A stretch of DNA of 34,891 bases. It comes from Aporhodopirellula sallentina SM41 (GTDB lineage Bacteria > Planctomycetota > Planctomycetia > Pirellulales > Pirellulaceae). Shown piece by piece: positions 1,845 to 34,613 of this stretch. The DNA lies in the NCBI RefSeq assembly GCF_000346505.1, contig NZ_ANOH01000020.1, positions 1 to 34,891 on the forward strand, read 5' to 3'. Under the pieces are notes generated by a model, which ran no database searches, had not been told where the DNA came from, and saw only the letters and a list, made by a program, of their open reading frames with translations. Position 1 is the first letter of the stretch. Each line of letters opens with the position of its first letter. The translations under genes were made by a program, and so were the position numbers.

Positions 1845-2565
1845 CGAATTCTCCGCCGCCGATAAGTAAATGTAATAGTGTTCGTAAATGGCACGGGCGT
1901 GATGACGCACCGAGCCGGATTTTCAGATTGGAAGCCCGGTAGGATAGCGACTTTCCGCTTTCATGGAAAGCATGAATTCATCGGCGGAACGCAATCCGCC
2001 CGGAACCTGCCCATCCTCTGCGGTCGGACGCTTGCCGAAACGCCCTCCACAACCACTCCCCGAGTTATCCCCCCCCGCCCTAGTGGCCCCGAAGAATCCA
2101 CCACGGATCCTCACACTGGGAAGATGAATACACGGCAAATCTTCATATTGGGGCGATCCAGGCCATTGCGTTGCGAACGGCCGCTGAAGGGGCATCCAAC
2201 TCTTCTTGATCGGCAAACTCAACGCAATCTTCGCGACCGTTGTTTTATGGATGTTAGGAACGGCAATGCAGCAATCACTTCGTTTTAAAGCAGCTTGACA
2301 GTGGGATTTCGATGCGATGCACCGATGAAGATTGCGACGACCCGGTGTGGAACCGGAAACAGCCTTTTAGTCTCGATCTCGATCGCCTGTGGCGGCATGC
2401 GACGTGTAAGAGTCCGGCAGGTCCGAAAAAGCCTTTTTTCGGCTGCGGAGGTTCGAAACGTAGTGCACTTCCAAAGAGTGTGTCGCTTCGATCGTCTGGC
2501 CACACCGATTTATCTTGGTGCCACAAAATCGACCCAATTGGATTGGGACAATCACGGAGAAAGCA
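1845..2565. other. Divergent intergenic region between rpmB and the porin gene
   Basis: A 721-nt gap without a credible gene; short open frames on both strands show no recognisable protein features. It must carry promoters for rpmB (leftward) and the porin (rightward). A perfect TTGACA hexamer lies at 2295-2300 on the plus strand, but no good -10 element follows at 16-18 nt. A short hairpin, CCGAAAAA at 2423-2430 with TTTTTCGG at 2435-2442, could be a weak terminator on either strand or part of the porin mRNA leader. A C-rich stretch runs from about 2069 to 2079. Nothing else was recognised. Confidence 0.5.
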
Positions 2566-3933
2566 ATGAAGCTTAGTAAATTAGCTCTGATCGCAGCCGT
2601 TGCATGCGGAATCAACGCACACAACCTGACGACTGCCTCAGCAAACGATATCAACATGGTTTCGTTCTGCGAAACTAGCTGCGACTGCGGCGAACCAGTA
2701 TGCGGATGCGAGCCAGTGTGCTGCGACCCAGGTTGCGACGACGGATCATGCTGCGAGCCAGAGTGCGGCTGCGAAGTATCGATCTGCGGCGACACCTGCT
2801 GCGACGACGGATGTGACTCGGCTGGCTGCTGCGGCGGCGGATTCGGCGATTGCCTGCCAATGGGCGACTGCGGCGATCCATGCTCGCTGTTCGGCGACAT
2901 CGGACACGGAATCACCGTCGGCGGATGGGCGCAACTGGGCTACCACACCGCAGCGGTTCCTTTGTTCAACAGCCGTCCCGACGAACTCCAACTTCATCAA
3001 GGTTGGTTGTACGCCGAAAAGGCAATCGACACTTCCAACGGTTTCGACATCGGTGGACGTATTGATTATGTCTACGGTACTGACGGACCAGACACGCAAG
3101 CGTTCGGTATCGACAACGATCACTGGGACAACGACTGGGACAACGGCAACGACTACGGTCACGCTTTGCCACAAGTCTACGCCGAAATGGGCTACGGCGA
3201 TTTGTCGGTCAAACTCGGCCACTTCTACACCATCATCGGATGGGAAGTGGTTGGAGCTCCTGACAACTTCTTCTACAGCCACGCGTACACCATGTACAAC
3301 AGCGAGCCTTTCACCCACACCGGTGCATTGGCCACGTACAACGTGTCGGATGACCTGTCGGTTTGGGGTGGTTACACCTTCGGTTGGGACAGCGGATTCG
3401 AAGACAACGGCGACTCGTTCTTGGGTGGTGCTTCGCTCGGTCTAACCGACAACATCACCATGATTTACGCCACGACCTTCGGTCGCTTCAACGAAAATCA
3501 AGGTGCTGCGACCGGTGCCGAACGCGGCTACATGCACTCCTTGTGCTTCGATGTCGCTCTGTCGGACAACCTTCAGTACATCTTCCAAAGCGATGTGCTT
3601 GAGTCGGAAGATGCAACCGGCGCAACGGCCCGTAGCACATTCGGTATCAACCAGTACTTGCTGTACTCGATCAATGACTGCTTGGCAATTGGCGGTCGCT
3701 TCGAGTGGTACAACCACGACGGTATCTTCGACGACGGCGGTGACCCCGCAACCGCCAACAACGGTGGCGACGTGTACTCGTTGACTTCTGGTATCAACTA
3801 CAAGCCTCACAGCAACGTGATCTTGCGTCCTGAAATTCGCTGGGATTGGGCCGCCGGAGACGAGCGATTCATCCTCGAAGACGGCGACGACGACCAGTTC
3901 AGCTTCGGCATGGACTCGATCTTCCTGTTCTAA
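2566..3933 (+). CDS. Outer-membrane porin, BBP2 (OmpL-like) family, with Cys-rich N-terminus
   Basis: Predicted outer-membrane beta-barrel of the BBP2 family, 455 residues. The start at 2566 (MKLSKLALIAAVACG) is chosen over an in-frame start at 2515 because it has GGAG about 8 nt upstream and opens directly into a signal peptide ending near ASA-ND (residues 24-28). Residues 35-106 hold 21 cysteines, mostly in CD, CE, CG and CC steps among Asp, Glu, Gly and Pro. The barrel follows from about residue 113 (GITVGGWAQLGYH). The block GHFYTIIGWEVVGAPDNFFY and the following SEPFTHTG are typical of planctomycete BBP2 proteins. The C-terminus FGMDSIFLF ends in Phe like many outer-membrane proteins. 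It probably forms a pore for small solutes. The Cys-rich segment may be disulfide-linked to envelope proteins; that is inference. It is monocistronic, with a strong terminator 33 nt downstream. Confidence 0.88.
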   Translation: MKLSKLALIAAVACGINAHNLTTASANDINMVSFCETSCDCGEPVCGCEPVCCDPGCDDGSCCEPECGCEVSICGDTCCDDGCDSAGCCGGGFGDCLPMGDCGDPCSLFGDIGHGITVGGWAQLGYHTAAVPLFNSRPDELQLHQGWLYAEKAIDTSNGFDIGGRIDYVYGTDGPDTQAFGIDNDHWDNDWDNGNDYGHALPQVYAEMGYGDLSVKLGHFYTIIGWEVVGAPDNFFYSHAYTMYNSEPFTHTGALATYNVSDDLSVWGGYTFGWDSGFEDNGDSFLGGASLGLTDNITMIYATTFGRFNENQGAATGAERGYMHSLCFDVALSDNLQYIFQSDVLESEDATGATARSTFGINQYLLYSINDCLAIGGRFEWYNHDGIFDDGGDPATANNGGDVYSLTSGINYKPHSNVILRPEIRWDWAAGDERFILEDGDDDQFSFGMDSIFLF

Positions 3934-4471: not shown

Positions 4472-7400
4472 GTGGACTACGAAACTGGAATCCAATCGTC
4501 GACCCAAGTGTCCGGATTATGGACACGCGGCGGCCCTGCGCCGTCAGATTCGTCGACGTTGATTCACCTCTGTCGATATCACGCGTGCGGTGATTCCGCA
4601 TCGCTGCCCGCATTCACCCACGTTTTGGGTGAACCCGGTGATCACGATCGACTCAGTTTTGCACAACTGGACGAGCGAGCCCGTGCGATCGCGTCGGAAA
4701 TCCAAGCTCGCGGCGGTGTCGGCAAACCGGTCCTCATCGTGCTCGACCCCGGATCGGATTACGCCGCGTCGCTGTTTGCGTGCATGTACGCGCGGGCGAT
4801 CGCCGTTCCGATCTATCCGCCGCAGATGCTGCGTCTGCAGCACACATTGCCGCGGCTCAAGGCCGTGATCGCCAACACGGGCGCGAAACTGATGCTCAGC
4901 GATCGAGCCACGATCGGCGATTCGCTGAGCAATCTTTGGCAGATGCCCGAAAGCGGGGCAATCGCCGTCGACGAAATCAACACCGAGGCCGCTTCGCTTT
5001 GGGACGGTCGTTTGCCCAAGCCAGACGATGCCGCGATTCTGCAGTACACCTCCGGCTCCACCGGAAATCCCCGCGGCGTTGTTCTGACTCATCGCATTTT
5101 GCTCAGCAACCTGCACGCGATCGTTAGACACGTTCACTTTGACGGTGCCCGCAGCGTACAGTGGGTTCCCCCGTATCACGACATGGGATTGATCGGTGGA
5201 ATCCTGCTGCCGATCTATCGGGGCGTTGAGACGGTCATCCTCTCGCCCGCCGATTTCGTCCGCAGCCCGCTGCTGTGGCTTCGATGCATTGACTACTACG
5301 ACGGTTCGAGCAACGGTGCTCCCAATTTCGGGTACGAACTGTGCGTGCGACGAATCGATCACGCCGATTGCGAAGGACTCGACCTGAGTTCATGGAAGGT
5401 CGCTGTCGCAGGTGCCGAACCGGTTCGCGCGTCAACGCTTCGCCGGTTCGAAGAGAAGTTCTCACGGTACGGATTCGGTTCAACCACGTTCTGTCCCGCG
5501 TTCGGGATGGCAGAAACCACTGTGATGCTGACCGGCTCACCCCTGGGAGAAAGATACAAAACCTACCATGTCGACGCGCAGGCGTTGCGACTGGGGCACG
5601 TCATTCCTAAGTCTCCGACGAACGCCCCGAACGAAAAGGAACAATCGGTCACACAGGAACTGGTCAGCTCGGGTATTCCGGTCGAAGGAATGGAATACGA
5701 AATCGTTGACCCTCAAACCTGTCACGCACTTCCTGACGGCCAAATCGGAGAGATCTGGGTTCGGGGCGGTTCGGTAGCGGCCGGATATTGGAACGACAAA
5801 GACGCGACCGCACAAACCTTCCACGCTCAACTCGCGTCGACGACTCATTGTCAATCCAAGTCCGTCGGCGAAGACGACCGGTACCTGAGAACGGGTGACC
5901 TAGCCTCGCGCATCGATGGCGAATTGATTGTCACAGGTCGGTTGAAGGAATTGATCATCGTCGCAGGTCGCAACTTTTACCCACACGACATTGAACAGAT
6001 CGTCCAATCGACCAGCGAAGCATTCAAACCGGACACCGGAACGGCGATCAGCATCGACGTCGACGACAGCGAGGAGTTGGTCGTCATCCAGGAATTGTGG
6101 CGGCCTCGCAAGTTTGTTCCCGAAGACCTGCTGAACGATGTCGTGGCAGCCATCGCGGAAAAAGCGCAAGTGACACCGCACGCGGTCGTGCTCGTCCGCA
6201 GCGGTTCACTCCCGAAAACTTCCAGTGGCAAACTGCAGCGGACGGACACGAAGGACATGTTCCTCCGAGGTGAACTCACCGAGATTGCTCGTTGGGAAGT
6301 CGGTGGAACGTGCTCCGCCAAGCCTGATCCTTATCAAGCGCCAAAAACCAAGACAGAACAAACGATCGCTTCCATTTGGTCGCGACTACTCGGGGTGGAC
6401 TCCATCAGTCGAAACGATGACTTTTTCCATCTCGGTGGCGGTTCGCTGCTGATCGCTCAAATGCTGACGGAGTTGAGCGAACGTTGCTCGGTATCGGTCC
6501 CCATGGCGACGCTGTTTCGTCATCCGCAATTGAAAGACTTTGCAGAGATCGTCGACTCGATTGATACCGCAAACCAATCGAACCAACCGATCGTTCGTGC
6601 ACCACAATCGCTCTGTGAACCACAACCGCTGTCCTCCGCTCAACAACGCTTCTGGCTGCTCGATCAACTCGGGCAAACGAATGCATTCGTTCATGTTCCG
6701 GTTACGATTGAACTCGACCGCCGTCTCGATCGGGAACAACTCGCCGAAGCGTGCCGATGCGTGATCCAAAAGCACCCGATGCTGCGAACGCGGTTTATCG
6801 AAACGGACCAAGAACCCGTTCAGGTTCTTGATGATTCGATCGAAATCCCAATCCACGAATTTGGCAAAGAGTTTGATCCGAACGATCAGTCCAACGATAC
6901 ACTGACGCAGTTCATTTGCGAGCCGATGGATCTGGAACGAGCGCCGTTGCTGCGCATCGGGATGACCCAACGTGCAGATGGTGGTACCCGCATCGACCTC
7001 GTACTGCATCACTTGGTCTGTGACGCAAGCAGCCTTCAAACGTTGATCGGTGACCTGGCAACCGCTTGTCAAACGGATGTCACCTCGACAACGCAATGGA
7101 CCGCGTCTGAGGATTCAACAGACAGACACTCCGTGCGCTATGTCGACTACGCTCAATGGGATCGGGCGAACATCTCCCGCGAAGAATTCGCGTCACGTCT
7201 TTCCTATTGGAAAACACGTCTCGCGGACATGCCGAGCCAAATCAACCTGCCGTTCGCGGACACACCGGTTCGCGAAACCGGAACAATATCACGGACGCCT
7301 GCAACGAGAACCGTTACCCCAGCAATCTCAAATCGCATCGAACAGATCGCTCGAGATCACGGGCTCACGCCGTCGATGGTTTACTTGACGGCGTTTCAAA

Positions 7401-9778
7401 CCGTTCTCGCTCGTTATGGAGGCGGCGACGATTTTGGGATCACGGTCCCGACTTCCAACCGTCCGTCAACGCAACTCAACGACGTCGTCGGTTGTTTTGT
7501 CAATCCGATTGTCTATCGAGCTCGCATCGACCAATCCCGATCCATCGCAGACGCGTTAAAACAAACTCGCACGGATCTACTCGACGACCTCGACCATGCC
7601 GACGTGCCGTTCCAAGAAGTCGTCTCGGCAGTCGATCAGGTACGGGACCTCTCACGGATGCCGTTGTCACAGGTGATGTTCCTGTATCAACCACCGTTTC
7701 AGAATATTGAACACATGGGTGACGCGACCGTTACCTCCGTGCGTCCCGGCTATTCCGCGGTCACCGCCTATGACCTTTCGCTGATTGTTCATCCCGGCAA
7801 CACGACCGAAGTCGCGGTGGTCGCCGGTGAACGAGTCCCAGTACAACTCGCCGGTAGAGTCCTCGACTCACTCAACGAGGTGCTCGAGCAGATTACCGAT
7901 TCCGCTCTCGCCGAGCGAACCATTGGCGAACTGTCGGTTCCTTCGGAAGCAGAACGCACAAGAATCGAATCCGCGGAACAGGGCAAGAAACTTCCCGTCG
8001 GCTCTGACGAGAACCTCATCGCTCGACTGCGCACTCACGCGGCACAAATTCCTAACCAAGTCGCCATTGTCGATGACTTGCACTCGCTGAGTTACCGCGA
8101 AGTCGATCAGATCAGTGATCGCGTTGCGTCCGGTTTGCTGTCAGAGGCAGTTACGTCGGGTTCGCTGGTTGGTATTGAGATGTCGCGAAGCGCCAACGCC
8201 CTGATTGCGATCCTTGGTTCGTGGAAAGCGGGGTTCGGTTACGTTCCTTTGGATCCGACACAACCACCACACCGCCGAGAACAAATCCGGACTGCTGCCA
8301 ACCTCTCGTTCGTCATCGACGACACGATGTTCCAACGATGGATGCAGCAGACCGAAGACGAATCGGCACGCGGGCAAGAGTCCACGCCGTCGCAGAACGA
8401 TTTGGCGTACGTGATGTTCACATCGGGTTCGACAGGAACACCGAAGGGCGTCGCGATCGAGCATCACAGCGTATCGAACTTGCTCGCCTCGTTCGCGGAT
8501 CAACCCGGTTTCACCTCCGACGATTCAATGCTCGCGGTCACCACCATGTCGTTTGACATCTCGGTACTCGAGATGTTGCTTCCACTTTGGTGTGGGGGCA
8601 AGACAATCGTTACCGCGAATCGCATCGGTGAAGATCCCGATTCGGTCATTCGCACCATCCACTCAGCCCGCCCGAACGTCGTCCAGTCGACACCCTCGGC
8701 CTTCCGAATGTTGTTGTCGGCCGGATGGCGACCGAACGAAGGCACACGTCTCTTCTGCGGTGGCGAACCGCTGCTGCCTGACCTCGCCTTGGATCTGCTC
8801 TCGAGCGACTGCGAACTGTGGAACGTCTACGGCCCCACCGAAACAACCGTTTGGTCAACGATCACACGGGTCGAATCCGCAGACCAAATCACGATCGGAC
8901 ATCCGATCGCCAATACGATCTGCCGAGTTATCGACGGACACGGCAATCCCGTTCCCGACGGCGTGGCGGGCGAATTACTGATCGGCGGCGATGGCGTTGC
9001 CCGGGGCTACTTTGGCGACGACGAACAAACTATCGAGCGATTCATCGTTGGTGACGAGACACGTTTTTACAAAACTGGGGATCAGGTTCGACGTTTGTGC
9101 GACGGTAACCTAGAGTTTCTCGCTAGGAACGATCGACAGGTCAAACTCCGTGGGTTCCGTGTCGAGCTCGACGAAATCGAAGCCGCGTTGCAACAGTGCG
9201 GCGGAGTCGATCGGGCCGCCGTATTGCTCTGGAAAAACGATTCGACCGGTGGAGATCGGTTGGTTGCGTTTTGCTCTGGGTCAAACGAGAGCGAAACGGT
9301 ACGAACGGAATTGGCCCAACGCATTCCGGAATACATGGTGCCGGCAACGATTCAGTGGCTCGAAGAATTGCCTCGCACCCCAGCCGGAAAGACCGACTAC
9401 CGTTCGCTCCCGACCGAATCCATTCAACCCGTTAGTACAGAAAAATCACCACCGCGGACGCCGCTCGAACAAGAGTTGGCGGAGGTGTGGTGCGAGGTGC
9501 TCGAATGCGAAAGCATCGGGCGAGACGATCACTTTTTCGATCTTGGTGGCAACTCGTTGATGGCCGCTCAACTGTTCGCGCGACTGCGTCAGCGGTTGGA
9601 CATCAATTTGCCACTACGTGAGATCTACGCCCGACCGACCATCGCATCGCTGGCCAGTGCCATTGTGATGCACCAGGCGGAAACAGACGCCGATGACTTA
9701 TCGGACATGCTCGCAGAACTCGATTCGCTTTCGGACGACGAAGCGATGCGAGTACTCGACAACGACAACCCGACCTGA
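4472..9778 (+). CDS. Lipopeptide synthetase, loading plus first module: FAAL-ACP-C-A(Gly?)-PCP
   Basis: A 1768-residue hybrid synthetase. Domains: fatty acyl-AMP ligase (about 28-600; core YTSGSTG at 192-198, FGMAETT, RTGDL, A10 lysine K587), acyl carrier protein (about 625-695, LGGGS with Ser658), condensation (about 715-1145, HHLVCDA at 846-852), adenylation (about 1180-1655; FTSGSTG at 1316-1322, YGPTETT, K1640) and peptidyl carrier protein (about 1668-1735, LGGNS with Ser1695). The last 36 residues are an acidic tail. The FAAL makes a fatty acyl-AMP and passes the acyl chain to the ACP. The C domain then acylates the amino acid on the PCP. Specificity residues read by eye against GrsA are D-I-L-Q-F-G-V-V-W-K, close to the classic glycine code DILQLGLIWK. 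The start is uncertain: GTG 4472 follows an in-frame TAA at 4463 and has no clear Shine-Dalgarno; GTG 4508 is an alternative. The next gene starts 21 nt downstream. Confidence 0.93.
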   Translation: MDYETGIQSSTQVSGLWTRGGPAPSDSSTLIHLCRYHACGDSASLPAFTHVLGEPGDHDRLSFAQLDERARAIASEIQARGGVGKPVLIVLDPGSDYAASLFACMYARAIAVPIYPPQMLRLQHTLPRLKAVIANTGAKLMLSDRATIGDSLSNLWQMPESGAIAVDEINTEAASLWDGRLPKPDDAAILQYTSGSTGNPRGVVLTHRILLSNLHAIVRHVHFDGARSVQWVPPYHDMGLIGGILLPIYRGVETVILSPADFVRSPLLWLRCIDYYDGSSNGAPNFGYELCVRRIDHADCEGLDLSSWKVAVAGAEPVRASTLRRFEEKFSRYGFGSTTFCPAFGMAETTVMLTGSPLGERYKTYHVDAQALRLGHVIPKSPTNAPNEKEQSVTQELVSSGIPVEGMEYEIVDPQTCHALPDGQIGEIWVRGGSVAAGYWNDKDATAQTFHAQLASTTHCQSKSVGEDDRYLRTGDLASRIDGELIVTGRLKELIIVAGRNFYPHDIEQIVQSTSEAFKPDTGTAISIDVDDSEELVVIQELWRPRKFVPEDLLNDVVAAIAEKAQVTPHAVVLVRSGSLPKTSSGKLQRTDTKDMFLRGELTEIARWEVGGTCSAKPDPYQAPKTKTEQTIASIWSRLLGVDSISRNDDFFHLGGGSLLIAQMLTELSERCSVSVPMATLFRHPQLKDFAEIVDSIDTANQSNQPIVRAPQSLCEPQPLSSAQQRFWLLDQLGQTNAFVHVPVTIELDRRLDREQLAEACRCVIQKHPMLRTRFIETDQEPVQVLDDSIEIPIHEFGKEFDPNDQSNDTLTQFICEPMDLERAPLLRIGMTQRADGGTRIDLVLHHLVCDASSLQTLIGDLATACQTDVTSTTQWTASEDSTDRHSVRYVDYAQWDRANISREEFASRLSYWKTRLADMPSQINLPFADTPVRETGTISRTPATRTVTPAISNRIEQIARDHGLTPSMVYLTAFQTVLARYGGGDDFGITVPTSNRPSTQLNDVVGCFVNPIVYRARIDQSRSIADALKQTRTDLLDDLDHADVPFQEVVSAVDQVRDLSRMPLSQVMFLYQPPFQNIEHMGDATVTSVRPGYSAVTAYDLSLIVHPGNTTEVAVVAGERVPVQLAGRVLDSLNEVLEQITDSALAERTIGELSVPSEAERTRIESAEQGKKLPVGSDENLIARLRTHAAQIPNQVAIVDDLHSLSYREVDQISDRVASGLLSEAVTSGSLVGIEMSRSANALIAILGSWKAGFGYVPLDPTQPPHRREQIRTAANLSFVIDDTMFQRWMQQTEDESARGQESTPSQNDLAYVMFTSGSTGTPKGVAIEHHSVSNLLASFADQPGFTSDDSMLAVTTMSFDISVLEMLLPLWCGGKTIVTANRIGEDPDSVIRTIHSARPNVVQSTPSAFRMLLSAGWRPNEGTRLFCGGEPLLPDLALDLLSSDCELWNVYGPTETTVWSTITRVESADQITIGHPIANTICRVIDGHGNPVPDGVAGELLIGGDGVARGYFGDDEQTIERFIVGDETRFYKTGDQVRRLCDGNLEFLARNDRQVKLRGFRVELDEIEAALQQCGGVDRAAVLLWKNDSTGGDRLVAFCSGSNESETVRTELAQRIPEYMVPATIQWLEELPRTPAGKTDYRSLPTESIQPVSTEKSPPRTPLEQELAEVWCEVLECESIGRDDHFFDLGGNSLMAAQLFARLRQRLDINLPLREIYARPTIASLASAIVMHQAETDADDLSDMLAELDSLSDDEAMRVLDNDNPT

Positions 9779-9799
9779 CTTCTTCCACCGAACTTTGTC

Positions 9800-11553
9800 A
9801 TGATCACGCCCTGCAAAGAACGCGAACTCGACTTCCTCATCATCGGTGCCGGCCCCGCCGGTATTCAGTTGGGTTATTTCATGAAACGCGCTGGCTACGA
9901 TCATTTGATCTTGGAAGCCCATGATCGCCCGGGCACGTTTCTCGAAAAGTACCCCCGTCACGGCAAACTGCTGTCGATCAACAAAGTTCACACGGGATAC
10001 ACCGACCGCGAATCACAACTTCGCTACGATTGGAACTCGCTGCTTTGTGACGATGACGATATGGCGTTCGGAAAGTACTCAAAAGAATACTTCCCGAGCA
10101 CTGAAGACTACGCCCGCTACACGCGAGACTTCGTCGAACGATTCGACCTCGACATCCAATTCAACACATGCGTTGAGTCTGTCGAAAAGCCGAAGAAGGT
10201 CGTGAAGGATACGTCGTCCGCGATAACCACGGAACGGTCTACCACGTTCGCTGTCTCGTCGTGGCCGTTGGAGTTCAAAAGCCATACATCCCAGAGATTC
10301 CTGGCATCGAACTCACCGAGAATTACGCCGACATGTCGATCGATCCCGAGGACTTTGAGGGTCAGCGGGTTTTGATCTTGGGCAAGGGAAACTCAGCGTT
10401 CGAAACAGCCAACCACTTGGTCTCGGCTACCCGAGTAACGCACCTGTGCAGTCCCAACCCGATCAAGATGGCATGGCAGACTCACTTCTTCGGCCATCTC
10501 CGCGCCGTCAACAATGACTTTCTCGATACATATATCTTGAAAGGACAGAACTCGGTTCTCGATGCTAACGTCGACAGCATCAAGAAAGTGGACGGCGAGT
10601 ACCATGTCGAGATTACGTTCACGCACGCCGAAGGCCAACGTGCATCGCTCGCATACGACCGCGTGCTTTGCTGCACAGGCTTCCGCTGGGATCCGACCTT
10701 TTTCGCCGACTCCTGTCGTCCCGACATGGCGTGCGAAGACCGACTGCCCGCGATGACAAGCGGTTGGGAATCAACCAACCTACCGGGCGTTTTCTACGCA
10801 GGAACGATCACGCAAATTCGTGACTTGAAAAAGACCATGTCGAGCGTTCTGCACGGCTTTCGGTTCAACACGGCGGCCCTGTTCAACATCCTCGGCGAGC
10901 GATTCATGGACGTCGCCTGGCCATCCGATTCGTTTGAAGCAACGCCGGAAAATATTGCAAACAAAATCACCGCTCAGGTCAGTTCAGCCGCCGGACTCAT
11001 GCACCAACCAGGTTTCCTCGGTGACTGCCTCGTCGTCGATGACGAAACCGGCATGGCGCATTACCACGCCAACATGGCGGTGGACTACATCCAGGAAAGC
11101 CACTTCGCCGATAACTCGCACTACTACATCATCACGATGGAATACGGCGAGTTTGAAGGCGACATTTTCAATAAACACCGCGTCCCGGACGCCGCCAAAG
11201 GGTACGACGACGCCTACCTGCACCCACGAATCCGCCGGATGTGTCGTGGCCAGATGATTTCAGAACATCACATTTCGGAATCCCTCGAAAACGATTGGCG
11301 TGTGGGTGAACACCCTGGCGAACGACCTCTGATCCGAGCGATCGATTTCATTGGGCAAACGGACGCGACCCGATATCAACAGACACACCGCGACCAACTG
11401 CTCCGCTTCCTCAGCGACCAACTCGCAGTCGGATCTCCATCCGAAGCAGAACTGCCTGCACTTGTCTGTCCCTCTTCTCCAAATGCGTCGGCGGCTATCT
11501 CGACGGCCATCCAGTCGACAGGAAACACATGTCCGATCTCGAGAAACGGCTAG
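9800..11553 (+). CDS. FOXRED2-like FAD/NAD(P)H oxidoreductase, interrupted by a frameshift
   Basis: One flavoprotein gene split into two frames. The 5' part (9800 to about 10190) starts with the FAD-binding LIIGAGPAGIQLGYFM motif and the YPRHGKLLSINKVHTGY and YDWNSLL blocks typical of the FOXRED2-like branch of flavin monooxygenase relatives. The 3' part, in the -1 frame and open from 10177, carries the NADPH-site block VLILGKGNSAFETA, LDTYILKGQNS and YDRVLCCTGF. Adding one A to the four-A run at 10185-10188 joins the halves into VEKAEEGREGYVVRDNHG with no other change, so the break is a recent deletion or a sequence error. If read as it stands, the first product is 191 residues and lacks the second nucleotide-binding domain. 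Expected role: oxidation of an assembly-line intermediate or the released peptide; substrate unknown. It lies 21 nt after the first NRPS and overlaps the second by 25 nt. Confidence 0.85.
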
Positions 11554-14500
11554 CATCCCTTTCGCCAGCGAAACGCGCGCTTCTCGAGAAAATGCTGCTC
11601 GAACGCGCATCGACTCGAAGCTCCAAGATTTCTCCCCGGCCTACCGATTGCGAGGACAGCCTCTCCGGCGCAGAAAGTCGGTTGTGGTTTGTCGATCAAA
11701 TCGCAAAGGATGACCCGTTCTACAACATGCCCCTCGCGGCACGTTTGCACGGCCCCTTGGACCAAAAGAGTCTCGACTCCGCGGTTGCGCAAATGGTGCA
11801 ACGGCACGAGTCCCTTCGCACAACGTACCACCTCGTTGACGGAGAACCTCAACGCAGAATCCACCATTCGCAACCAATCCGCTGCACTTGGGTGGATGTC
11901 TCCAACAGCCGCGACCCGGATAACGAGATCCGGCGGAAAATGCGTGTCGCCTCTCGCACGCCGTTCGATCTCGAGAACGGACCGCTGCTGAGGATCACCG
12001 TTTATCGGATCAGCGACACCGAACATGTGATCTTGCTGGTAATGCATCACATCATCTCGGACGGATGGTCGATGATCGTGATGCTGCGAGAGTTAACGCT
12101 CGCCTACGAGATGAATCGGTCGCAAGATTCGTCCTCGGAACTGTCTCTCGGCTCGCTTCCGTCATTGCCGATTCAGTACGCCGACTTTGCTCACTGGCAA
12201 AACGAACAGATGTCGGAAGAGCGGATCGAAAAACAAATGGCATACTGGCGTGAATCGCTTGCAGGTGCCCCCGCGGTACTCGACTTGCCGACAGATCGAC
12301 CTCGCCCTGCCGTCCAGGATTTCATCGGCGCGACGGTAGATCTCGAATTGCCGGTCGAACTCACGCAGTCCGTCAATCAACTCGCGTCCAAACTGCAAAC
12401 CACCCCGTTCGCAGTCTTGATGGCGGCCGAAGCCCTGCTCCTGGGTCGTTTTTCACGTCAAGATGATCTCGTTCTCGGAACGGCTTCCGCCGGGCGTGTT
12501 CATCCCGAGATCGAACCGCTGATCGGCTTCTTCGTCAACACGTTGGCCCTGCGTGTGCGGTTGGAAGATGACCTTTCGTTCGTCGACCTCATCAAACAGG
12601 TTCACCAAACTACGGTCGCCGCCCACGAACATGCCGACGTGCCGTTCGAACGTTTGGTGGAGGAACTCGCTCCGACGCGTGACCGCAGTTTCTCGCCGAT
12701 TTTTCAGTCGGCCCTCGTGATGCAAAACCTGCCTCGCGACATTAGCGAAAAAGGCAGCATTCAAGTCGACCCGATCTTGGTCGACAACGGCACCGCAAAA
12801 TACGATTTGACGTTCTTCCTATGGGAAGAATCCGAAAAGCTGGTCGGCCACGTCGAATACCGATCCACTCTCTTCGACCGCGATACCATCGAACGACTGA
12901 TCGATTCGTATCGCACGCTGTTGAGTGCAGCCGTCGCACAGCCCGATTCATCCATTGATCGTTTGACGATTCTCTCGGAGAAACAGAGATCGCAGGTCAT
13001 TGATGAATTCAACCAGACCACGGTAACTAATCCGCCGCCCTACCTTCTTCAAGAATTGGTCGAAGAGAACGCACAGCGGACTCCAGAAAAAACCGCGGTG
13101 GTGCATGGAAACACGGAAGTCAGCTATCGCGATCTGATTAAAAAGGCGAACAACATCGCCGGTCATTTGATTGCCGCAGGAGTCGTATCGGAAACCGCAG
13201 TCGTCATCAAACTGCCCCGTTCGATCGATCTCATCGCATCGATATTGGGCATCCTCAAAGCCGGTGGATCCTTCGTCCCCGTCGACCCGGAATTCCCTTC
13301 GGCGAGGGTCGACCAAATTGTCAACGATACTTCCGCCAAGGTCCTGATCGATCCAAACTGGATCCGCGAACATAACGAGGCTCCGCCGAACACCGCACTC
13401 CCGACGATCGATCCGAGCCAGCGAGCGTACGTGATCTTCACATCCGGATCGACGGGCGTCGCCAAGGGCGTCGAGATCGAACACCGTGGGATCGTGAACT
13501 TTGTGCGGGCACAAATCGACCGAATGCAGGTCTCATCAGACGACCGATTCAGCTTCAGCTTCTCGCCGTGTTTCGATGGTGCGATTTCCGAGATCTTCTA
13601 CGCCCTCGGCAGTGGCGGCACGAGCGTTGTCGTTGACAAACCCACGCTGCTCGTTCCCGAAGAACTCTCGCAGTTACTGAACCAGAACAACGTCAGCGTC
13701 GGTAAATTCCCACCGGCATTACTGTCAACTCTCGATCCGGCACGACTGCCAAATCTTCGCATCGTTGCATCCGCAGGCGATAAGTTAACAGGGGAACTTG
13801 CTCGCCGTTGGCTCACCAAAGGTCGACGATTCTTTAACGGTTACGGCCCGACCGAAGTTTCTGTCGGCTGCAGCATGATGCCACTCGACGAAACCTGGAC
13901 CGGTGAAAAACCGCCAATCGGTCCGCCGATGAACAACATGCGGATGTACATTCTCGACGAACACCAAAACCCACTTCCCATCGGTGCGTCAGGCGAGATT
14001 TACATCGGTGGCAAAAGCGTCGGGCGAGGTTACCTGGGAATGCCCGAACAGACCGACGCTGTCTTCCTGCATGATCCGTTTGTATCGGATGACGCTGACA
14101 GCGATGATCGCCCACCGCGGATGTATCGAACCGGCGACCTCGGGCGTTGGCTCGCCTGCGGCAACGTTGAATTCGTAGGCCGAGTCGATGACCAGGTCAG
14201 CCTTCGCGGCTTTCGTATCGAACCCGGTGAAATCGCAGCCACCCTCGAAACACTCGAAGGTGTCCGCCAAGCAGCCGTCATCGAGCGCAACGAAAACGAA
14301 ACCTCTCAACTCGTCGCCTATGTGGTTACGCAAAAAGATCGCGGCGAAGAGGAACGCACCTCTCATCTCGAATCGAATCACGTCACGCAGTGGCGTGACC
14401 TTTTCGAACAAACGCACCGCATCGCCCCTCCGGTACTCGACCCCTCATTCAACATCACCGGATGGATCAGCACCTACACCGGAAAACCGATCCCTAGCGA

Positions 14501-16859
14501 TGAGATGCGTCAATGGACCGAAGGAGCCGTTCGTCGAATCCTCAGTCTGCGCCCCCGAAACGTTTTGGAAATCGGTTGCGGAACCGGTTTGCTCTTGCTA
14601 CGAATCGCCGAACACTGCAAACGATACGTCGGTTCCGACCTGCTCGCGTCATCGCTGCAGAACATCGAGAGCGAACTGGCCCATCGGCCTCATCTGCAAG
14701 ACAAAGTTGCTCTTGTCCAGGCATTCGCGGACGAGTTCAATCATCTCGGCGACGACAAATTCGACTGTGTCGTGTTGAATTCAGTCGTGCAGTATTTTCC
14801 CGGAATTGACTACCTGCTCCGCGTCGTCGAGGGGGCAATCGCTCACTTGGCTCCCGGCGGATCGCTGTTCATTGGCGACGTCAGAAACCTTCGTTTGCAA
14901 ACAGCGATGGCAACATCGGTGGAAATGTCAAACGCCGACCCACAGTTGTCGCTCAGTGAACTCAAACACCGCGTCGCCTCCCGAATCGAGCACGAAGAAG
15001 AACTGCTCCTCGATCCAGAGTTATTCAGCTACCTGAAAACGATCCATCCTCGTATTTCCAATGTCCGTGTACTTCTCAAAGACACGGCTCATCAGAACGA
15101 ACTCGGTCGATTCCGGTATGACGTCATCATCGACGTTGACGAACACCAATCCGAAACCACCTATCAGACCATACCGTTCAACGAAGAATCTGACCTCAGC
15201 ACGGCTCCCCCGTCGTCGGTTCGCTATACCGGTATCAACAACTCACGCGTTGCGAAAGACTGCCACTCGGTGGCTTTGCTAGAGACGATGTCCGACACGG
15301 CAACGGTAGCCGATCTGATGGACCATCTCGAAGCCGATGCGTCACACTTCGAAGGCCGAGAACCGAACGACCTGATCGAGTTGTCGCCTACCGATTCTTC
15401 GGCAACTTGGAACGAAGACGATCCGAGCCGATTCGACGTCGTAGTCTGCTCCTCGCAAGCCGACACCAACTCCGGTGATACTCGGACGGTGGAGGAACCC
15501 AACGTGGCATCGCCAAGCGTTCCTTCACCGACTGACACCAACGGGATCGACCCAAGTCAGTTTGCGAACGATCCGATCGGCACGGAACGGGATCGCGAGT
15601 TCACCAAACGATTGCGTGATGAACTCTCGGCACGACTGCCCGCCTACATGATTCCGTCCGCCTTCGTTGTGCTCGAAGAGATCCCGCGCACGATCAATGG
15701 CAAAATCGACCGCGCGAACTTGCCACGTCCGGCGGGTCGCCCCGCGTGGGCAGGCAACTTCAAGGCACCGACCACCGCGACTCAGGAAGCACTTGTCAAA
15801 ATCTGGGAGGACCTGCTCGACACACGTCCGATCGGAATCGAAGACGACTTCTTTGAACTCGGCGGTCATTCGATGTTGGCGGTTCGCATGACGAGCGACA
15901 TCGAGCGGTTGCTCGGCAAGCGTCTCCCTTTGGTGGCGTTGTTTCAAAACGCCACGATCGCGCACCTAGCCGAACGAATCGATGCGGGTGAATTGTCCGA
16001 AGCCGGCTCGACATTGGTTCCGCTGAAAATGGCGGATGCCACAGGTTCGACGGAGGAAGTGGAACCACCACTCTTCTGCATTCACCCTGCCGGCGGAACA
16101 GTATTCTGCTACATGGAAATGACATCGCACCTGCGATCGGGACGAGCCGTCTACGGTGTCCAAGCCAATGGGATTGACGGAACCCAACCCCCACATGAAA
16201 CGCTCGCTGAAATGGCGGCTCATTACGCGCGAGCGATTCGCGAAATTCATCCTGAAGGCACCGTGCATTTGGCCGGATGGTCACTCGGCGGAAACATCGC
16301 ATTCGAAGTCGCCCGACAGTTGCAATCCCGCGGGACTCCAGTGGGGGTCGTGGCACTTCTCGACTCTGGACTGCTATCGCCCGAAACGCAGCTTCGTGAA
16401 GAAGATTTCTTGCCTTTGCTGTCCGCACTCTTCCCCGGGGCGATGAACCTCGATCTCGAACAAATCCGACAGAAGAGCCCTGCCGAACAACTCCAATTCT
16501 TCGTAGACCGTGCCTCCCAAGCAGGCATCGTTCCGGGCGAACTCAACGACATCGTTGCCACGAAAGATACCGCCAACGCGGCGCATGTCTTCAACGTGTT
16601 TCAATCCAACGTCAAAGCCGTCCATGAATACGTCGCCGAACCATTCGACGGCAATGTTCACCTGTTCCGACCGGTTGATCAAGGGAAAACGAATTCGCTC
16701 TTCGATGACCCGGTCTTGGGATGGCGTGAGGTCACCGAAGATGTTCACCTGCACGAAGTCCCCGGTGATCATGCCCACATGCTGCAATCACCCGCAGCCG
16801 AAACGATCGCCAGCCAACTCGATCAACTGATGCTGAAACGATCCGCCGTCCCCGTCTGA
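11529..16859 (+). CDS. NRPS, second and terminal module: C-A(MT)-PCP-TE
   Basis: A 1776-residue synthetase. Domains: a short N-terminal helix (LSPAKRALLEKMLLER), condensation (about 44-480, HHIISDG at 173-179), adenylation from about 504 (FTSGSTG at 637-643, YGPTEVS, YRTGDLGRW), an embedded methyltransferase (about 950-1205, SAM motif VLEIGCGTG at 1012-1020), a long acidic linker, the end of the adenylation domain (about 1361-1400, NGKIDR with Lys1392), peptidyl carrier protein (about 1414-1485, LGGHS with Ser1448) and thioesterase (about 1513-1770). The thioesterase has GWSLGG with Ser1585 and candidate triad partners Asp1612 and His1748. An MT placed late in an A domain usually N-methylates the bound amino acid. 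Specificity residues read as D-G-S-K-A-A-G-V-G-K, matching no code I know, with only weak likeness to Asp/Asn codes. ATG 11529 has AGGAAA about 6 nt upstream. The TE should release the lipodipeptide as acid or ring. Confidence 0.93.
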   Translation: MSDLEKRLASLSPAKRALLEKMLLERASTRSSKISPRPTDCEDSLSGAESRLWFVDQIAKDDPFYNMPLAARLHGPLDQKSLDSAVAQMVQRHESLRTTYHLVDGEPQRRIHHSQPIRCTWVDVSNSRDPDNEIRRKMRVASRTPFDLENGPLLRITVYRISDTEHVILLVMHHIISDGWSMIVMLRELTLAYEMNRSQDSSSELSLGSLPSLPIQYADFAHWQNEQMSEERIEKQMAYWRESLAGAPAVLDLPTDRPRPAVQDFIGATVDLELPVELTQSVNQLASKLQTTPFAVLMAAEALLLGRFSRQDDLVLGTASAGRVHPEIEPLIGFFVNTLALRVRLEDDLSFVDLIKQVHQTTVAAHEHADVPFERLVEELAPTRDRSFSPIFQSALVMQNLPRDISEKGSIQVDPILVDNGTAKYDLTFFLWEESEKLVGHVEYRSTLFDRDTIERLIDSYRTLLSAAVAQPDSSIDRLTILSEKQRSQVIDEFNQTTVTNPPPYLLQELVEENAQRTPEKTAVVHGNTEVSYRDLIKKANNIAGHLIAAGVVSETAVVIKLPRSIDLIASILGILKAGGSFVPVDPEFPSARVDQIVNDTSAKVLIDPNWIREHNEAPPNTALPTIDPSQRAYVIFTSGSTGVAKGVEIEHRGIVNFVRAQIDRMQVSSDDRFSFSFSPCFDGAISEIFYALGSGGTSVVVDKPTLLVPEELSQLLNQNNVSVGKFPPALLSTLDPARLPNLRIVASAGDKLTGELARRWLTKGRRFFNGYGPTEVSVGCSMMPLDETWTGEKPPIGPPMNNMRMYILDEHQNPLPIGASGEIYIGGKSVGRGYLGMPEQTDAVFLHDPFVSDDADSDDRPPRMYRTGDLGRWLACGNVEFVGRVDDQVSLRGFRIEPGEIAATLETLEGVRQAAVIERNENETSQLVAYVVTQKDRGEEERTSHLESNHVTQWRDLFEQTHRIAPPVLDPSFNITGWISTYTGKPIPSDEMRQWTEGAVRRILSLRPRNVLEIGCGTGLLLLRIAEHCKRYVGSDLLASSLQNIESELAHRPHLQDKVALVQAFADEFNHLGDDKFDCVVLNSVVQYFPGIDYLLRVVEGAIAHLAPGGSLFIGDVRNLRLQTAMATSVEMSNADPQLSLSELKHRVASRIEHEEELLLDPELFSYLKTIHPRISNVRVLLKDTAHQNELGRFRYDVIIDVDEHQSETTYQTIPFNEESDLSTAPPSSVRYTGINNSRVAKDCHSVALLETMSDTATVADLMDHLEADASHFEGREPNDLIELSPTDSSATWNEDDPSRFDVVVCSSQADTNSGDTRTVEEPNVASPSVPSPTDTNGIDPSQFANDPIGTERDREFTKRLRDELSARLPAYMIPSAFVVLEEIPRTINGKIDRANLPRPAGRPAWAGNFKAPTTATQEALVKIWEDLLDTRPIGIEDDFFELGGHSMLAVRMTSDIERLLGKRLPLVALFQNATIAHLAERIDAGELSEAGSTLVPLKMADATGSTEEVEPPLFCIHPAGGTVFCYMEMTSHLRSGRAVYGVQANGIDGTQPPHETLAEMAAHYARAIREIHPEGTVHLAGWSLGGNIAFEVARQLQSRGTPVGVVALLDSGLLSPETQLREEDFLPLLSALFPGAMNLDLEQIRQKSPAEQLQFFVDRASQAGIVPGELNDIVATKDTANAAHVFNVFQSNVKAVHEYVAEPFDGNVHLFRPVDQGKTNSLFDDPVLGWREVTEDVHLHEVPGDHAHMLQSPAAETIASQLDQLMLKRSAVPV

Positions 16860-16870
16860 TTCACTACGGA

Positions 16871-17491
16871 TCACTGCTCGGCGGACCGATACAATCTCTC
16901 GTGTTGGATGAACGCTTCGACGGCATGTGGCACACGGAACCGAATCGATCGTGAATGAAGAACACGATCTCGCAGATCTCGGCTACTGATTTCAATCTGC
17001 GGCATGTCGATCTCCGCATCGCGGCACTCTGAAACTTTTTGTGCGGGGGCGAAGTCGTTGAGGACCGTGTAGTCCGGACTCGGCATCCCTCCTCGAGCGA
17101 CCACCGCGAGCGTGCAAAGTTCGAGAATCCGCTGCGGTTCCTTCCAACGGTTAAACGACGCCAGCGAGTCGGCTCCAATGATCAAGAACAACCGGCGATC
17201 GGGGTGTTCTGAGCGTAACTGTTCTAGCGTATCGACAGTGAAGCTCACACCACTCCGGTCGATCTCTCGAGTATCAATCACGTGTCCGTTTTGCCCCGAG
17301 AGCACCAAACGCAGCATGTCGATGCGTTGACCGTCGGTCGCTACCGTCCCTGACTCCTTCAATGGGCTCGTCGCTGCCGGGACCCAACGCACCTCACCGA
17401 CCGGCAACTGCTCGAGCGCATATTCCGCAATCCAAAGATGCCCGATGTGGACCGGATCGAACGATCCACCATAGATTGCAACGGCGTCCAT
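16871..17491 (-). CDS. nadD: Nicotinate-nucleotide adenylyltransferase
   Basis: Cytoplasmic enzyme joining nicotinate mononucleotide and ATP to deamido-NAD, the penultimate step of NAD synthesis; 206 residues, normal for NadD. The start is ATG 17491, with AGGGGA about 9 nt upstream and the protein opening MDAVAIYGGSFDPVHIGH. The GGSFDPVHIGH nucleotidyl-transferase motif (residues 8-18) and the ISSRDLR motif near the C-terminus are both intact. A GTG immediately before the ATG is an alternative start. Longer in-frame starts to 17668 would overlap the previous gene and are not needed. It is the last gene of a minus-strand operon, 13 nt after the UPF0489 gene. It converges on the NRPS gene, with only 11 nt between the two stop codons. 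Confidence 0.95.
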   Translation of the reverse strand: MDAVAIYGGSFDPVHIGHLWIAEYALEQLPVGEVRWVPAATSPLKESGTVATDGQRIDMLRLVLSGQNGHVIDTREIDRSGVSFTVDTLEQLRSEHPDRRLFLIIGADSLASFNRWKEPQRILELCTLAVVARGGMPSPDYTVLNDFAPAQKVSECRDAEIDMPQIEISSRDLRDRVLHSRSIRFRVPHAVEAFIQHERLYRSAEQ

Positions 17492-17504
17492 CACAGCTGT
17501 CCCC

Positions 17505-18866
17505 TTATTCACTCGTTTGACCACATAAACGCGATTTGATCTCAATGACATCTCGCAACGAAGCATAGAAACGATCGGCCGTTTCCATCTCACCGAGCAA
17601 TCGGTGGACGTGCACCAAATTTTCGACAACCGATTGCCACGCAGGTGTCCTTTCGTGAGCCTTGGCAAACCAATCTGCGGCGACTCGCAATTGCGTTTCG
17701 TCGCCGTTTTGCCTCGCTGATTCAGCCGCTATCAATCCCAAATAATTGCAGGCCGCGGCACACGTTTTGTCGTCATTCAAAGCGTCCTGCAGATAGTTTC
17801 CGGCGTCAAACCAACATTCCGATTCAATCAGCAACCGTGCTATCTCCAAAGCCAGTTCGGGATGGACGCCGAACGCTTCAGCAACGACACCATAACAGTC
17901 GCGAGCCGAATCCAAATCGCCAAGATGACACCACAAGATTCCAATGGCGGCGTAGAACAACCCGCGATCTTGTATCGAACCTTTCGTCGATTCAAATTCG
18001 CGCTGCAACGCCTGGACATCGACGGGTGCTACCGGCAAACCTCGAGCCGGATATTCACAGGCACGACGCAGCCCGTCGTTTAACGGGGTTTTGACACCGT
18101 GCGTGGTGGTTGCCTGTTTCTCGCCGCCGCTCGTCAGTTTTCCTACCGCCTCGTCAAACGCGCGTTGCAACTCTTGATCGAGCGTGGAGTATCGCAGCGG
18201 CGTGAACCCACTCTCAACAGAGCGAGAGATCGTCACTTCCGAAAACTCCAGCGGCAGCTCCATCAAATCTGCCACGACCTGCACCGGAGACACACCGATC
18301 TGTTCACTTGGCAATTCGACGAAATAATCCAGGTCGATATCAACGAGACAACTCGAAGGCAAACCAACGTGCGGCAACGCCTCTCGGTGGCACACGGTCA
18401 ACTCAATACCTAACAACTCACCTTCAATCCAACGAACCGCGTCTGAGTTCCGCGAGCACCAGGAGAAACTGCGGAGATCTTCAATCGTGACACCATCAGT
18501 TTGCTGCAATTGCTCGATCGCGGACTGCATGTCATGAATTGGGACATGACTCGGAGCGACCCAAATCAGTTTCCGAACCACTCCCATCCTCGCTGCCGCG
18601 AAAAAGAAGTCCTCAATCCCGAAACTGTAACTCCGCGAAGCGACCGCATCCCAATCAGGCATCAGGTGGTGCGGCTTCATTTCCGCGCGTAGCTCGTCAC
18701 TGGTCTTGCTCGCAACGAGTCGTTTCAAACGCGACGCCGTGATTCGTTGCACGTCCAAATGAGCATCAAAGCAGACAACGACCGCATTCTTGACGCCTTT
18801 CTCGAACCAATACGGAAGAACCTCACTGTGTTCTTCGAAAACGATCGTGTTGACCGTTCGCGTCAC
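17505..18866 (-). CDS. UPF0489 (peptide-arginase-like) protein with C-terminal TPR-like repeats
   Basis: A 453-residue protein. Residues 1 to about 230 match my recollection of the UPF0489 family: an EEHSEVLPYW start, FDAHLD at 33-38 and VDIDLDYF at 175-182. His13, Asp34, His36, Asp38, Asp176 and Asp178 fall in the H, DxHxD, DxD order of the manganese ligands of arginase-fold enzymes. Some members of this family convert Arg to Ornithine in peptides. Residues about 300-440 form helical TPR-like repeats (GLFYAAIGILWCHLGDLDSA, CAAACNYLGLIAAE), which suggest binding of a protein or peptide partner. Start GTG 18866 overlaps the stop of the upstream propeller gene as GTGA, so translation is probably coupled. 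No peptide precursor gene was seen nearby. The activity is inferred from ligands alone; it might be a non-peptide ureohydrolase or inactive. Confidence 0.7.
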   Translation of the reverse strand: MTRTVNTIVFEEHSEVLPYWFEKGVKNAVVVCFDAHLDVQRITASRLKRLVASKTSDELRAEMKPHHLMPDWDAVASRSYSFGIEDFFFAAARMGVVRKLIWVAPSHVPIHDMQSAIEQLQQTDGVTIEDLRSFSWCSRNSDAVRWIEGELLGIELTVCHREALPHVGLPSSCLVDIDLDYFVELPSEQIGVSPVQVVADLMELPLEFSEVTISRSVESGFTPLRYSTLDQELQRAFDEAVGKLTSGGEKQATTTHGVKTPLNDGLRRACEYPARGLPVAPVDVQALQREFESTKGSIQDRGLFYAAIGILWCHLGDLDSARDCYGVVAEAFGVHPELALEIARLLIESECWFDAGNYLQDALNDDKTCAAACNYLGLIAAESARQNGDETQLRVAADWFAKAHERTPAWQSVVENLVHVHRLLGEMETADRFYASLRDVIEIKSRLCGQTSE

Positions 18867-21800
18867 GGCGACTCAGCTTCGTCGTCTATTTTCAAAGTGT
18901 CCGAGAACGTGTAGGTCAATAACTCACTCTGAATCGTCGCGATGATTTGATCACGATGAGGCAGGAGACGGACATGGGTTTCGATACGATTGTTGCGACT
19001 GCCAATGTTCTTGCCCAACAGTTCGTGAAGGACGTGGCCGTCATCGATATCGAGTCCCCAAACATCAAGTTCTCGCTGCCGTGACGCACCGCCCTGACTC
19101 TGGAAATGCGAATGCCCACGAACCAACATCAACATTGGGGTCAACCACGGTTGATAGGTCGTCACGCCGCGTGCTTGTTCGAAGGAGACAGACCACGCCA
19201 AACGTGCTGCCGGGTTCGAACTTTCGACAGATTCGGACTGCGACGCGTCCTGCTGTTGTTCGTCACCGTCGGTGTCTTCAGGGTCGTCTTCGCTTGCATC
19301 GCTGACTGGTTGATTTTCCGTTTCGCTCGCATTGATCTCCTCTTCTTGCCATTCGATGCAGTGAACGCTGGTGGCCCCCTGGACAGACAACCCACTCGCG
19401 ACGGTTACGGTGCTCGTTGTGCTATCGCTCTGTTGAGGCAATCGGCATCGAGGCATCAACAGAAACCGGTCTTTCACTTGAACGACCGAAAGTCCAAAGA
19501 GATTCGGCCTCACGGGCACGGAAACCTCGGCGAGCTCTCGTCCGGTGAAAACGTCCCAAATGGTCGTTCGACCCGAGTTATCGAGGAGCACGAAGTATCT
19601 CCCGTCAACCATCTCGCCATAGGAAGCAGAGCGTTCTTGATCGGTCAGGTTCACCGGTGACGCAAGCCGTTTACGAACCCGTTGCATCGAAATGCAGTCA
19701 ACAATCTCGACGGTATGCGGGTCATACAATTCGACTTGGCCGTCGCGATCGTTATAGTCTGAAACCAGAAGCGCGTGCCTGCCGAGCGTCGCCAACATGG
19801 AATCGATCACCAAAGACTTTGATTCGATATGCCCGCCATCATACGTGTCGAAATACGCGATCTGATCAGCCCGTTCGCTGAGCACGCCAACACGGCCATC
19901 ACCTGCAACGACTCCACTGCCAGCCAAACCGATGTTGCTTCGCCAGAGTTGCTCCCCCGTCACGCTGTGGTAGCAAATGAGGTCTTCGCCCTGCAGCAAG
20001 AACAATCGATCGCCGAGTACGGGCCCGAGTCGCAACTGCGCGTCATCCGCATTTGCGGTCGGCGAGTTTGAAACATAACGATAGACCTGATCACCAAACT
20101 TCGATGTTTCGCTGCGCCGCTTCGCAACCGGTTGTCCATCGGGATGCAGACTTTGTCGCCACCGCACGATTTCATTGACGCCACCGGCGAAGACTCGGAA
20201 CAGATCGATGGCGATCAATTCCGAAGGTGTCAGGACGAGCATCAACCCGCCGCTGAGGGTCACTTCTTTGTCGCTCGAATTGCGGTTGGTAAGTCCCTCG
20301 ACCACGATCGGACGTGAGATCCCATCATGATCCAACAGAGCGAGAGGGTTGTTGTCACTGATCGCCTGCCAGCCCAACAACTGTCGTCCCATCAAACGGG
20401 TCGTCCGTGCATAACGTCGATCGGAAATCAACGCCTGAGTTTGCGGAAGACGTGTCGACTGCCACTGCAAATCAACCTGACGCGGCCATGATTCTGGAGG
20501 AATGCGGCCAACGCCGAGCACTTGATACTCGTCCAGCGTCGATGCGATCCGTTCGATCATCTCCGGTGTAGCGTCAGGTTCTTGGATTCTAGCCTGCAGC
20601 ACTTCACCGACTCTGCGTCGATCTTGATTCCACCCCGCCGCGCTGTAGACCTGGGCGAGCACACAGAGACTCGTGACATCCAAAGACGCCGTAGTTTCAT
20701 CCGATGGCATGCGAACGCCCCATGTCAATCGTTCCGTTGCCAGAGCGTCACCCTGCCCTTGGTATTGTTTCAACAGGCTTTCTTGGGACGATTCGACAGC
20801 ATCGCCCAACGGAGCAAAATGTTCGACGATTTGGCCCAAAGTCATCCGGTTGGGTCGAATGCGATTTGTAAGATGAGCTTCGAATTTCTCCGCCAGTGAC
20901 GCCTGGGTGGCATCATCCGCCGCCGCAACCACTTCGGCGACCCGAGCGGTTAGCCAAGCTGACAACGTGAATTGCCTGGATTGACTAGGAAAAATCATGG
21001 CCTGCTGGCTCGCCACGTTAGGGCGTTCGATCATCAACGCAGACAACTCGAGCAATAAATCGAACGCGTTTGTTAATTCGTTCGACGATGGTGTTCCTTC
21101 CGAATCGTTCTCGTCATCGGGGCTTAACTGCCGAAGAATTTGCAGAACGAGCAACTCGGCCTGTTGCTCAGGCCGATCAATCAACCGGCGCAGCGTATCC
21201 AATTCCTCTTGCGAAATTTCATGCTGTTCCCGAAGACTTCCTAACATCGCTTCCACAGACAGCGAGATCACGTCGTCATTATCCGGATCGATGCTGCGAG
21301 CCTTTTGCAGGAGTGCCAACGCTTCACCACGTTGATCCTCTTCCAGCAACAACTGAGCCTTGTGGACGAGTGCGACGAGGTCGTCGGGATCTTCCGTCAA
21401 AATACGGTCGACCTGAGGTCGCAAGGAATCCTCTCCGTAGGCGACCGCAGTCGTCGTGGTCGCTTGAGAGATAATTTCGCCGTCTACCGCGATCAGGTTC
21501 CCCAACGGATAACGAACAATGCGACGAGAAAGCACGCGTCCTGACGCCAATCCGATTTCGATCAACTCGTCGTTCGTTGTTGGCAGATAGTAGCTCGATT
21601 CACCGAACACTCCGCGACCGGATACCCGTTGGCCGGGACTCATCATATCGCTCGGCGTCGCCCACACCTCCGAGCCCGTGTTGAGGTCGTAGGCCATCAC
21701 CCGATCGGCACGAACAATGATGTACCGGTTGTCTCGAATCCCAGCAAGATAGAAATTCTTCCCGCGTGGTTGCGGCCGAAACCGGTCTTCACCGCTGACG

Positions 21801-32961: not shown

Positions 32962-32973
32962 TTAGGCGTTGGC
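32953..32973 (-). repeat. Perfect 9-bp hairpin with the rplO stop codon as its loop
   Basis: GCCAACGCC at 32953-32961 and GGCGTTGGC at 32965-32973 are perfect inverted copies. The three-base loop is the TAA stop of rplO on the minus strand. No T run follows on the minus strand. On the plus strand TTCTTTC follows, a poor T tract. It may stabilise the rplO 3' end or mark an attenuation point before the gap. Confidence 0.8.
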
Positions 32974-33459: not shown

Positions 33460-33560
33460 AGTAAAGATCTACTTTGGGAAGAATGCACCGATCAGAAACA
33501 AGATTCGATCGCAATCCTTCATGTGGTGTTCAAAATTGGACGATTGGGCGTGGTCGCCGA

Positions 33561-34097: not shown

Positions 34098-34181
34098 TTG
34101 TGCAATTTGTCTGCTGAAAGGGCTGCAGAGGACACTCGGTTAAGCCACTGCGATTGTAATGTGTTCGAAAAAGGTATTTAC

Positions 34182-34550: not shown

Positions 34551-34613
34551 GACAGTAAACCGTTCGGGGAGTGGACTCGCAAAGCCGTCCATTCCCAAGT
34601 GATGTTGGGATGA

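Follow-up and report, generated by a model that had tools for sequence, protein, structure and literature searches.

The 34,891-nucleotide stretch analyzed here (the window) is the entire contig C20 of the 8.19-Mb draft genome of Aporhodopirellula sallentina SM41, which is assembled in 491 contigs. It carries three adjoining genes, termed A, B and C, that probably form a nonribosomal peptide synthetase (NRPS) cluster for a small lipopeptide, with a product scheme of fatty acyl-Gly-N-Me-X plus a conjectured oxidation by protein B, a flavoprotein (Table 1). Genes B and C share 25 bases at their junction, and in four relatives (L028, L029, L031 and L032) genes A and B have four bases in common, an arrangement like that of an operon. 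An earlier, sequence-only reading had described three tightly packed genes; A, C and the flavoprotein region do adjoin, but the coding frame of the flavoprotein is interrupted, which that reading had missed.

Protein A contained two AMP-binding, one Condensation and two PP-binding domains in Pfam, and protein C contained Condensation, AMP-binding, Methyltransf_12, AMP-binding_C, PP-binding and Thioesterase in that order, in both cases at very low E-values. Together with matches to PDB sequences, these bore out the domain order that had been read from the sequence, namely fatty acyl-AMP ligase (FAAL), acyl carrier protein (ACP), condensation, adenylation and peptidyl carrier protein (PCP) in A, and condensation, adenylation, methyltransferase (MT), PCP and thioesterase (TE) in C. 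The first AMP-binding domain of protein A was FAAL-like: 23 PDB sequences matched it at 1e-20 (best E 3e-115), and the top 15 were FAAL or acyl ligases, 11 of them acyl-AMP or acyl-CoA ligases by name and the other four (7r7e-g and 3kxw) presumably FAALs. McyG and amino acid adenylation domains ranked below these 15. NCBIfam FAAL models also matched protein A, none of those among the best 25 of 108 matches exceeding its own cut-off. An ACP and a condensation domain follow the FAAL directly, as is found for FAAL-primed lipopeptide NRPSs, and this position would imply the starter (N-acylating) subtype for the condensation domain.

The adenylation domain of module 1 (A1) had a glycine-like pocket. 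Its code read DILQ(F/L/V)GV(V/I)WK in all 15 orthologs of A (the last K was read in a separate step and then appended), one to three letters away from DILQLGLIWK, which we take to be the glycine code, and close to a control domain reading DILQLGMIWK. Of 12 control domains chosen, ten were read by the same procedure; nine gave codes presumably of the Leu (2), Val (2), Phe (1), Gly (1) and Asn (3) types and one gave a non-standard code. The leading PDB matches of A1 included LgrA, 4zxh and 5u89, all presumably glycine modules. The fatty acyl dipeptide that had been proposed from sequence would thus have glycine first. The carrier motif GGxS was present in PCP1 of 15/15 orthologs and in the ACP of 14/15. 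An acidic C-terminal tail (Ser and three acids), found in 14/15 orthologs with G644 as the exception, may have a docking role.

In protein C the a8 motif was read before the MT and the a9 motif after it. The best PDB match of the MT was 5wmm (E 8e-41 over 221 residues; next best 9e-8), presumably the interrupted adenylation domain of TioS from the thiocoraline pathway. Given the insertion of the MT between a8 and a9 and its closest match, 5wmm, backbone N-methylation is its likely reaction, in agreement with the single probable methylation of the sequence-only reading. In the excerpted text of a published account, N-methylating domains in interrupted adenylation domains are generally placed between a8 and a9 (PMC11355689). 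The pocket of the second adenylation domain (A2) read DGSK(A/S/L)(A/G)GVGK in 13/13 orthologs of C, a conserved and non-standard code, in which Lys at place four and the terminal V-G recall Asn/Asp codes such as that of three PuwA proteins (DATKVGEVGK); the other lining residues are small. The PDB sequences nearest to A2 presumably have several different substrates. An aromatic module 2 (Tyr, Phe or Trp) was rejected on the Lys at the fourth pocket place in all 13. Motifs for PCP2, for the TE (GWS(L/I)GGN) and for S-adenosylmethionine binding by the MT were each found in 13/13 orthologs.

Table 1. Genes of the cluster and domains of proteins A and C. In domain strings, C is condensation and A adenylation; positions are in nucleotides of the window for genes and in amino acids (aa) of the protein for domains.
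Feature	Position	Strand	Description and evidence
Gene A	4472-9778	+	1768 aa; FAAL-ACP-C-A-PCP; Pfam, NCBIfam, PDB, pocket code
FAAL	gene A ~aa 20-610	+	PDB, NCBIfam
ACP	gene A ~aa 625-710	+	Pfam PP-binding
Condensation domain, starter position	gene A aa 718-1163	+	Pfam
Adenylation domain A1, glycine-like pocket	gene A aa 1187-1640	+	Pfam, pocket code
PCP1	gene A aa 1667-1731	+	Pfam PP-binding; acidic C-terminal tail after it
Gene B, 5' part	9800-10375	+	FAD-binding half of flavoprotein; frame broken relative to 3' part
Gene B, 3' part	10261-11553	+	NAD(P)-binding half and C-terminal domain of flavoprotein; other frame
Gene C	11529-16859	+	1776 aa; C-A-MT-PCP-TE; Pfam, PDB, motifs
Condensation domain	gene C aa 45-489	+	Pfam
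AMP-binding, A2	gene C aa 512-836	+	Pfam
Methyltransferase, interrupting the adenylation domain between a8 and a9	gene C ~aa 985-1220	+	Pfam Methyltransf_12 at 1013-1113
End of adenylation domain, AMP-binding_C	gene C aa 1358-1392	+	Pfam
PCP2	gene C aa 1421-1484	+	Pfam PP-binding
Thioesterase	gene C aa 1513-1765	+	Pfam Thioesterase

The three genes have stayed together beyond this strain. With B orthologs defined by 54% identity or more, 16 genomes were counted; A adjoined B in all 16 (in G020 with one gene between them), and A, B and C were found together in 12, from two families (G000, G003, G009, G008, G006, G001, G011, G020, G524, G724, G666 and G644). Conservation of the three genes together, a check that the sequence-only reading had named, was observed. 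In G489, A was a fragment at a contig end and C lay on another contig. In three genomes of one genus (g7; G018, G569 and G570), A and B were adjacent and C was separated from them by roughly 0.3 to 0.6 Mb, assuming circular chromosomes; because A and B stay adjacent there while C is remote, this points to B working with A. Named hosts included Rhodopirellula rubra, Aporhodopirellula aestuarii, Rhodopirellula (Allorhodopirellula) solitaria, Neorhodopirellula pilleata and K23_9 (also Stieleria marina). The protein database added five contigs (32346, 41370, 74543, 104076 and 124940 bases long) with matches to A, B and C, their linkage being judged from equal size alone. The gene between A and B in G020 encodes a TauE/SafE-type exporter (L033:7825-8856, +), which might export the product.

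B was matched at 1e-80 in 19/241 genomes of the family and in 7/296 genomes of an order sample that overlaps the family sample, and at 1e-60 in 1/392 genomes of a phylum sample, that one being the genome of the window itself. Within the genus, 7 of 13 genomes carried it. Compared with the nearest syntenic relative, dN/dS was ~0.03 for B, 0.10 for A and 0.08 for C; dS was close to saturation. The window was collinear with G003:C15 throughout, at 54-89% identity in the near flanks and 74-91% in the cluster, and a recent transfer of the cluster was rejected on the collinear flanks and their similar identity. The cluster occupies a different place in other members of the genus.

Protein B matched general oxidoreductase models in Pfam. 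Its core is YpdA/monooxygenase-like and has two dinucleotide-binding motifs (GAGPAG at 16 and GKGNSA at 195 of the first alignment row), the N-terminal one present in 62/62 rows of B relatives and common to many reductases. A short FxGxxxH pattern occurred, anywhere in the protein, in 5 of these 62. The C-terminal domain, queried with the relative L026, gave no good PDB match. The structure 8odw, presumably LbmA Ox of the lobatamide pathway, would act on carrier-bound glycine; it matched B weakly (E 1.5e-4, B residues 13-210 only) and presumably differs in forming an oxime on a free amine. When 51 rows were placed in a quick, midpoint-rooted tree, the B genes from these clusters stood among other proteins, the named ones planctomycete, and proteins of Endobugula, Hormoscilla and Moorena fell outside the group that contains them. 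Among more distant B-like genes, L049 lies one gene from another NRPS and L055 adjoins a polyketide synthase gene, and for this reason more than one kind of assembly line may be served by flavoproteins of this family. One 47,692-base contig apparently holds two different B-type flavoproteins and an A-type protein (P0022, P0062 and P0334), as judged by equal size of the source contig alone.

As the protein families suggest, the FAAL of protein A would activate a free fatty acid as acyl-AMP and load it onto its own ACP, and the first condensation domain would join the fatty acyl group to glycine on PCP1. Protein C would then add a second, N-methylated residue, X, whose identity is a guess, and the TE would release fatty acyl-Gly-N-Me-X, at a guess by hydrolysis rather than cyclization. 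Protein B would use FAD and NAD(P)H and might oxidize either the acyl-glycyl intermediate on A or the released product. The presence of two phosphopantetheinyl transferase (PPTase)-family genes elsewhere in the genome counts in favor of this scheme.

Several observations weigh against it. The A1 code of the window itself agrees with the glycine code given above in 7/10 letters only, the first condensation domain reads HHxxxDA, not DG, in 11/15 orthologs, and the ACP of G020 has GAKS rather than GGxS. The A2 code is not known to fit any standard code, and the most similar code read, DGGSLAGVGK of P0223 (43% identity), is without the Lys. For B, the long fingerprint of Baeyer-Villiger monooxygenases was found in 0/62 relatives, so that an oxygenase reaction is a family-level guess only. 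Six of the 13 genomes of the genus are without B. Neither an A-type nor a C-type gene adjoins any of the ten B-like genes of lower identity (44-49%), several of whose contigs are short. Finally, the flavoprotein gene of the window consists of two overlapping open reading frames (ORFs) in different frames, a difference of one base.

This break raises the question of whether the cluster is decaying, with B a true pseudogene and the strain either skipping the B step in making its lipopeptide or making no product at all. The stretch between the B start and the first base of the second ORF measures 461 bases in the window and 462 in L026, and when ORFs of G003:C15 were matched to the window (1e-20, >50% identity), 22 of the 23 matched ones fell in one frame and only the flavoprotein in two; one other gene is represented by two of these reference ORFs. 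A and C are open, however, and all seven aligned relatives of B have a single open frame of 558-595 aa. Relative to the nearest syntenic relative, dN/dS was ~0.03 both before the break (125 codons) and after it (430 codons), with dS near saturation. Given the open frame of the relatives and equal selection on both sides, B was strongly constrained until very recently, or the break is a sequence error; since the assembly is a draft in 491 contigs, such an error is as likely as a pseudogene. We therefore regard decay as quite possible without favoring it; if the break is real, this strain would be without the B step.

The role of B within the preferred three-gene scheme also has a competitor, in which B is a reductase or electron supplier rather than a tailoring oxygenase. 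The fold of B is equally near to bacillithiol disulfide reductase, but this similarity is tied with that to flavin monooxygenases, no CxxC occurs in the first row of the B alignment, and B is kept with the NRPS genes in 12 genomes; we consider a reductase unlikely. Very improbable is a cluster that makes stieleriacine-type N-acyl (dehydro)tyrosines. These are known from Pirellulaceae, and the excerpted text of PMC12479983 describes N-acyl amino acids with oxidation and methylation from related organisms. That same text, however, which also covers gene deletions in Stieleria neptunia, ascribes stieleriacines not to an NRPS but to N-acyl amino acid synthases (NasY) together with ThiF and nitroreductase genes, on which ground the stieleriacine pathway was rejected here (PMC12479983), and the module 1 pocket is glycine-like. 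No N-acyl amino acid synthase family appeared in the Pfam lists of the three genes, a search with no NasY model that left the rest of the genome unsearched.

Beyond the acyl-Gly-N-Me-X scheme, B could found a class of NRPS tailoring flavoenzymes, in which a YpdA/flavin monooxygenase-like core is joined to a C-terminal domain of unrecognized fold that would recognize the glycyl carrier of A and so let the enzyme oxidize the acyl-glycyl unit on the assembly line. Module 2 would then load an unusual polar or non-proteinogenic residue through its DGSK..GVGK pocket, and oxidized N-methyl lipodipeptides of a new class would result, a conserved trait of part of the Planctomycetes. We regard this larger proposal as doubtful.

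Known systems resemble the cluster in parts. The interrupted adenylation domain 5wmm (presumably TioS) gave the best PDB match of the MT; thiocoraline is a different pathway and is not known to have a FAAL or flavoprotein partner of this type. The columbamide pathway presumably yields a FAAL-primed acyl amide, and its other genes presumably differ. In the excerpted text of PMC11355689, the MT of an interrupted adenylation domain of the 5wmm kind lies between a8 and a9, and so do the MTs of ColG of the columbamide pathway, which has two. PuwA of the puwainaphycins has an adenylation domain with a related MT and, as in A2, Lys at place four and a terminal V-G in the pocket; these proteins are longer (2854-2870 aa) and belong to a large lipopeptide pathway in the excerpt of PMC4219810. 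At 35-37% identity (P0213, P0214 and P0231), PuwA was the nearest named characterized protein noticed among the best 120 proteins listed per gene, most of which are without a name. No close named characterized cluster was found among them, consistent with the sequence-only reading, which knew of no characterized pathway with this exact set and order, and no title or abstract opening among the literature matches listed described such a cluster.

To our knowledge, the three genes would thus represent a conserved, uncharacterized lipodipeptide NRPS cluster of which each single part is familiar. Only a few natural products of planctomycetes are known to have been assigned to genes. With three genes, and occurring in several genera with named strains, the cluster is of a size that suits heterologous expression and deletion and could therefore help to connect a molecule with its genes in this phylum; the module 2 pocket and the C-terminal domain of B are testable points of interest. 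Stieleriacines are named in the excerpt of a planctomycete review (PMC12078418). According to the excerpted text of PMC10805854, which covers 23 planctomycetes, some of the broadest activities came from extracts of A. aestuarii ICT_H3.1 (the source strain of L041) and R. lusitana LzF4, without any known bioactive product being identified. Nothing links this activity to the cluster, and strains with unchecked genomes were active too.

Named neighbors of the three-gene set are a BBP2 porin gene (2515-3933) and a nucleotidyltransferase gene (16871-17668); an FtsX-type permease gene (23845-25005) lies ~7 kb downstream, in flanks of which not all other ORFs were judged. The sequence-only reading had noted no PPTase beside the cluster, and none was found in the window; the two PPTase-family genes are on contigs C169 and C215. 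Contigs C215 and C274 of the same genome (G000) carry further NRPS genes, and the PPTase-family gene of C215 lies ~24 kb beyond the NRPS matches of that contig. On the minus strand of the window, a 1621-aa PQQ-repeat/TPR protein (18863-23728) had a match in 13/13 genomes of the genus, and its gene adjoins the cluster only in G000, G003 and G009 among the seven genus genomes with the cluster. Four further minus-strand ORFs (31134-34891), including SecY and ribosomal protein L15, were 95-99.6% identical to G003, compared with 54-91% for the other matched ORFs of the window, which is probably housekeeping conservation.
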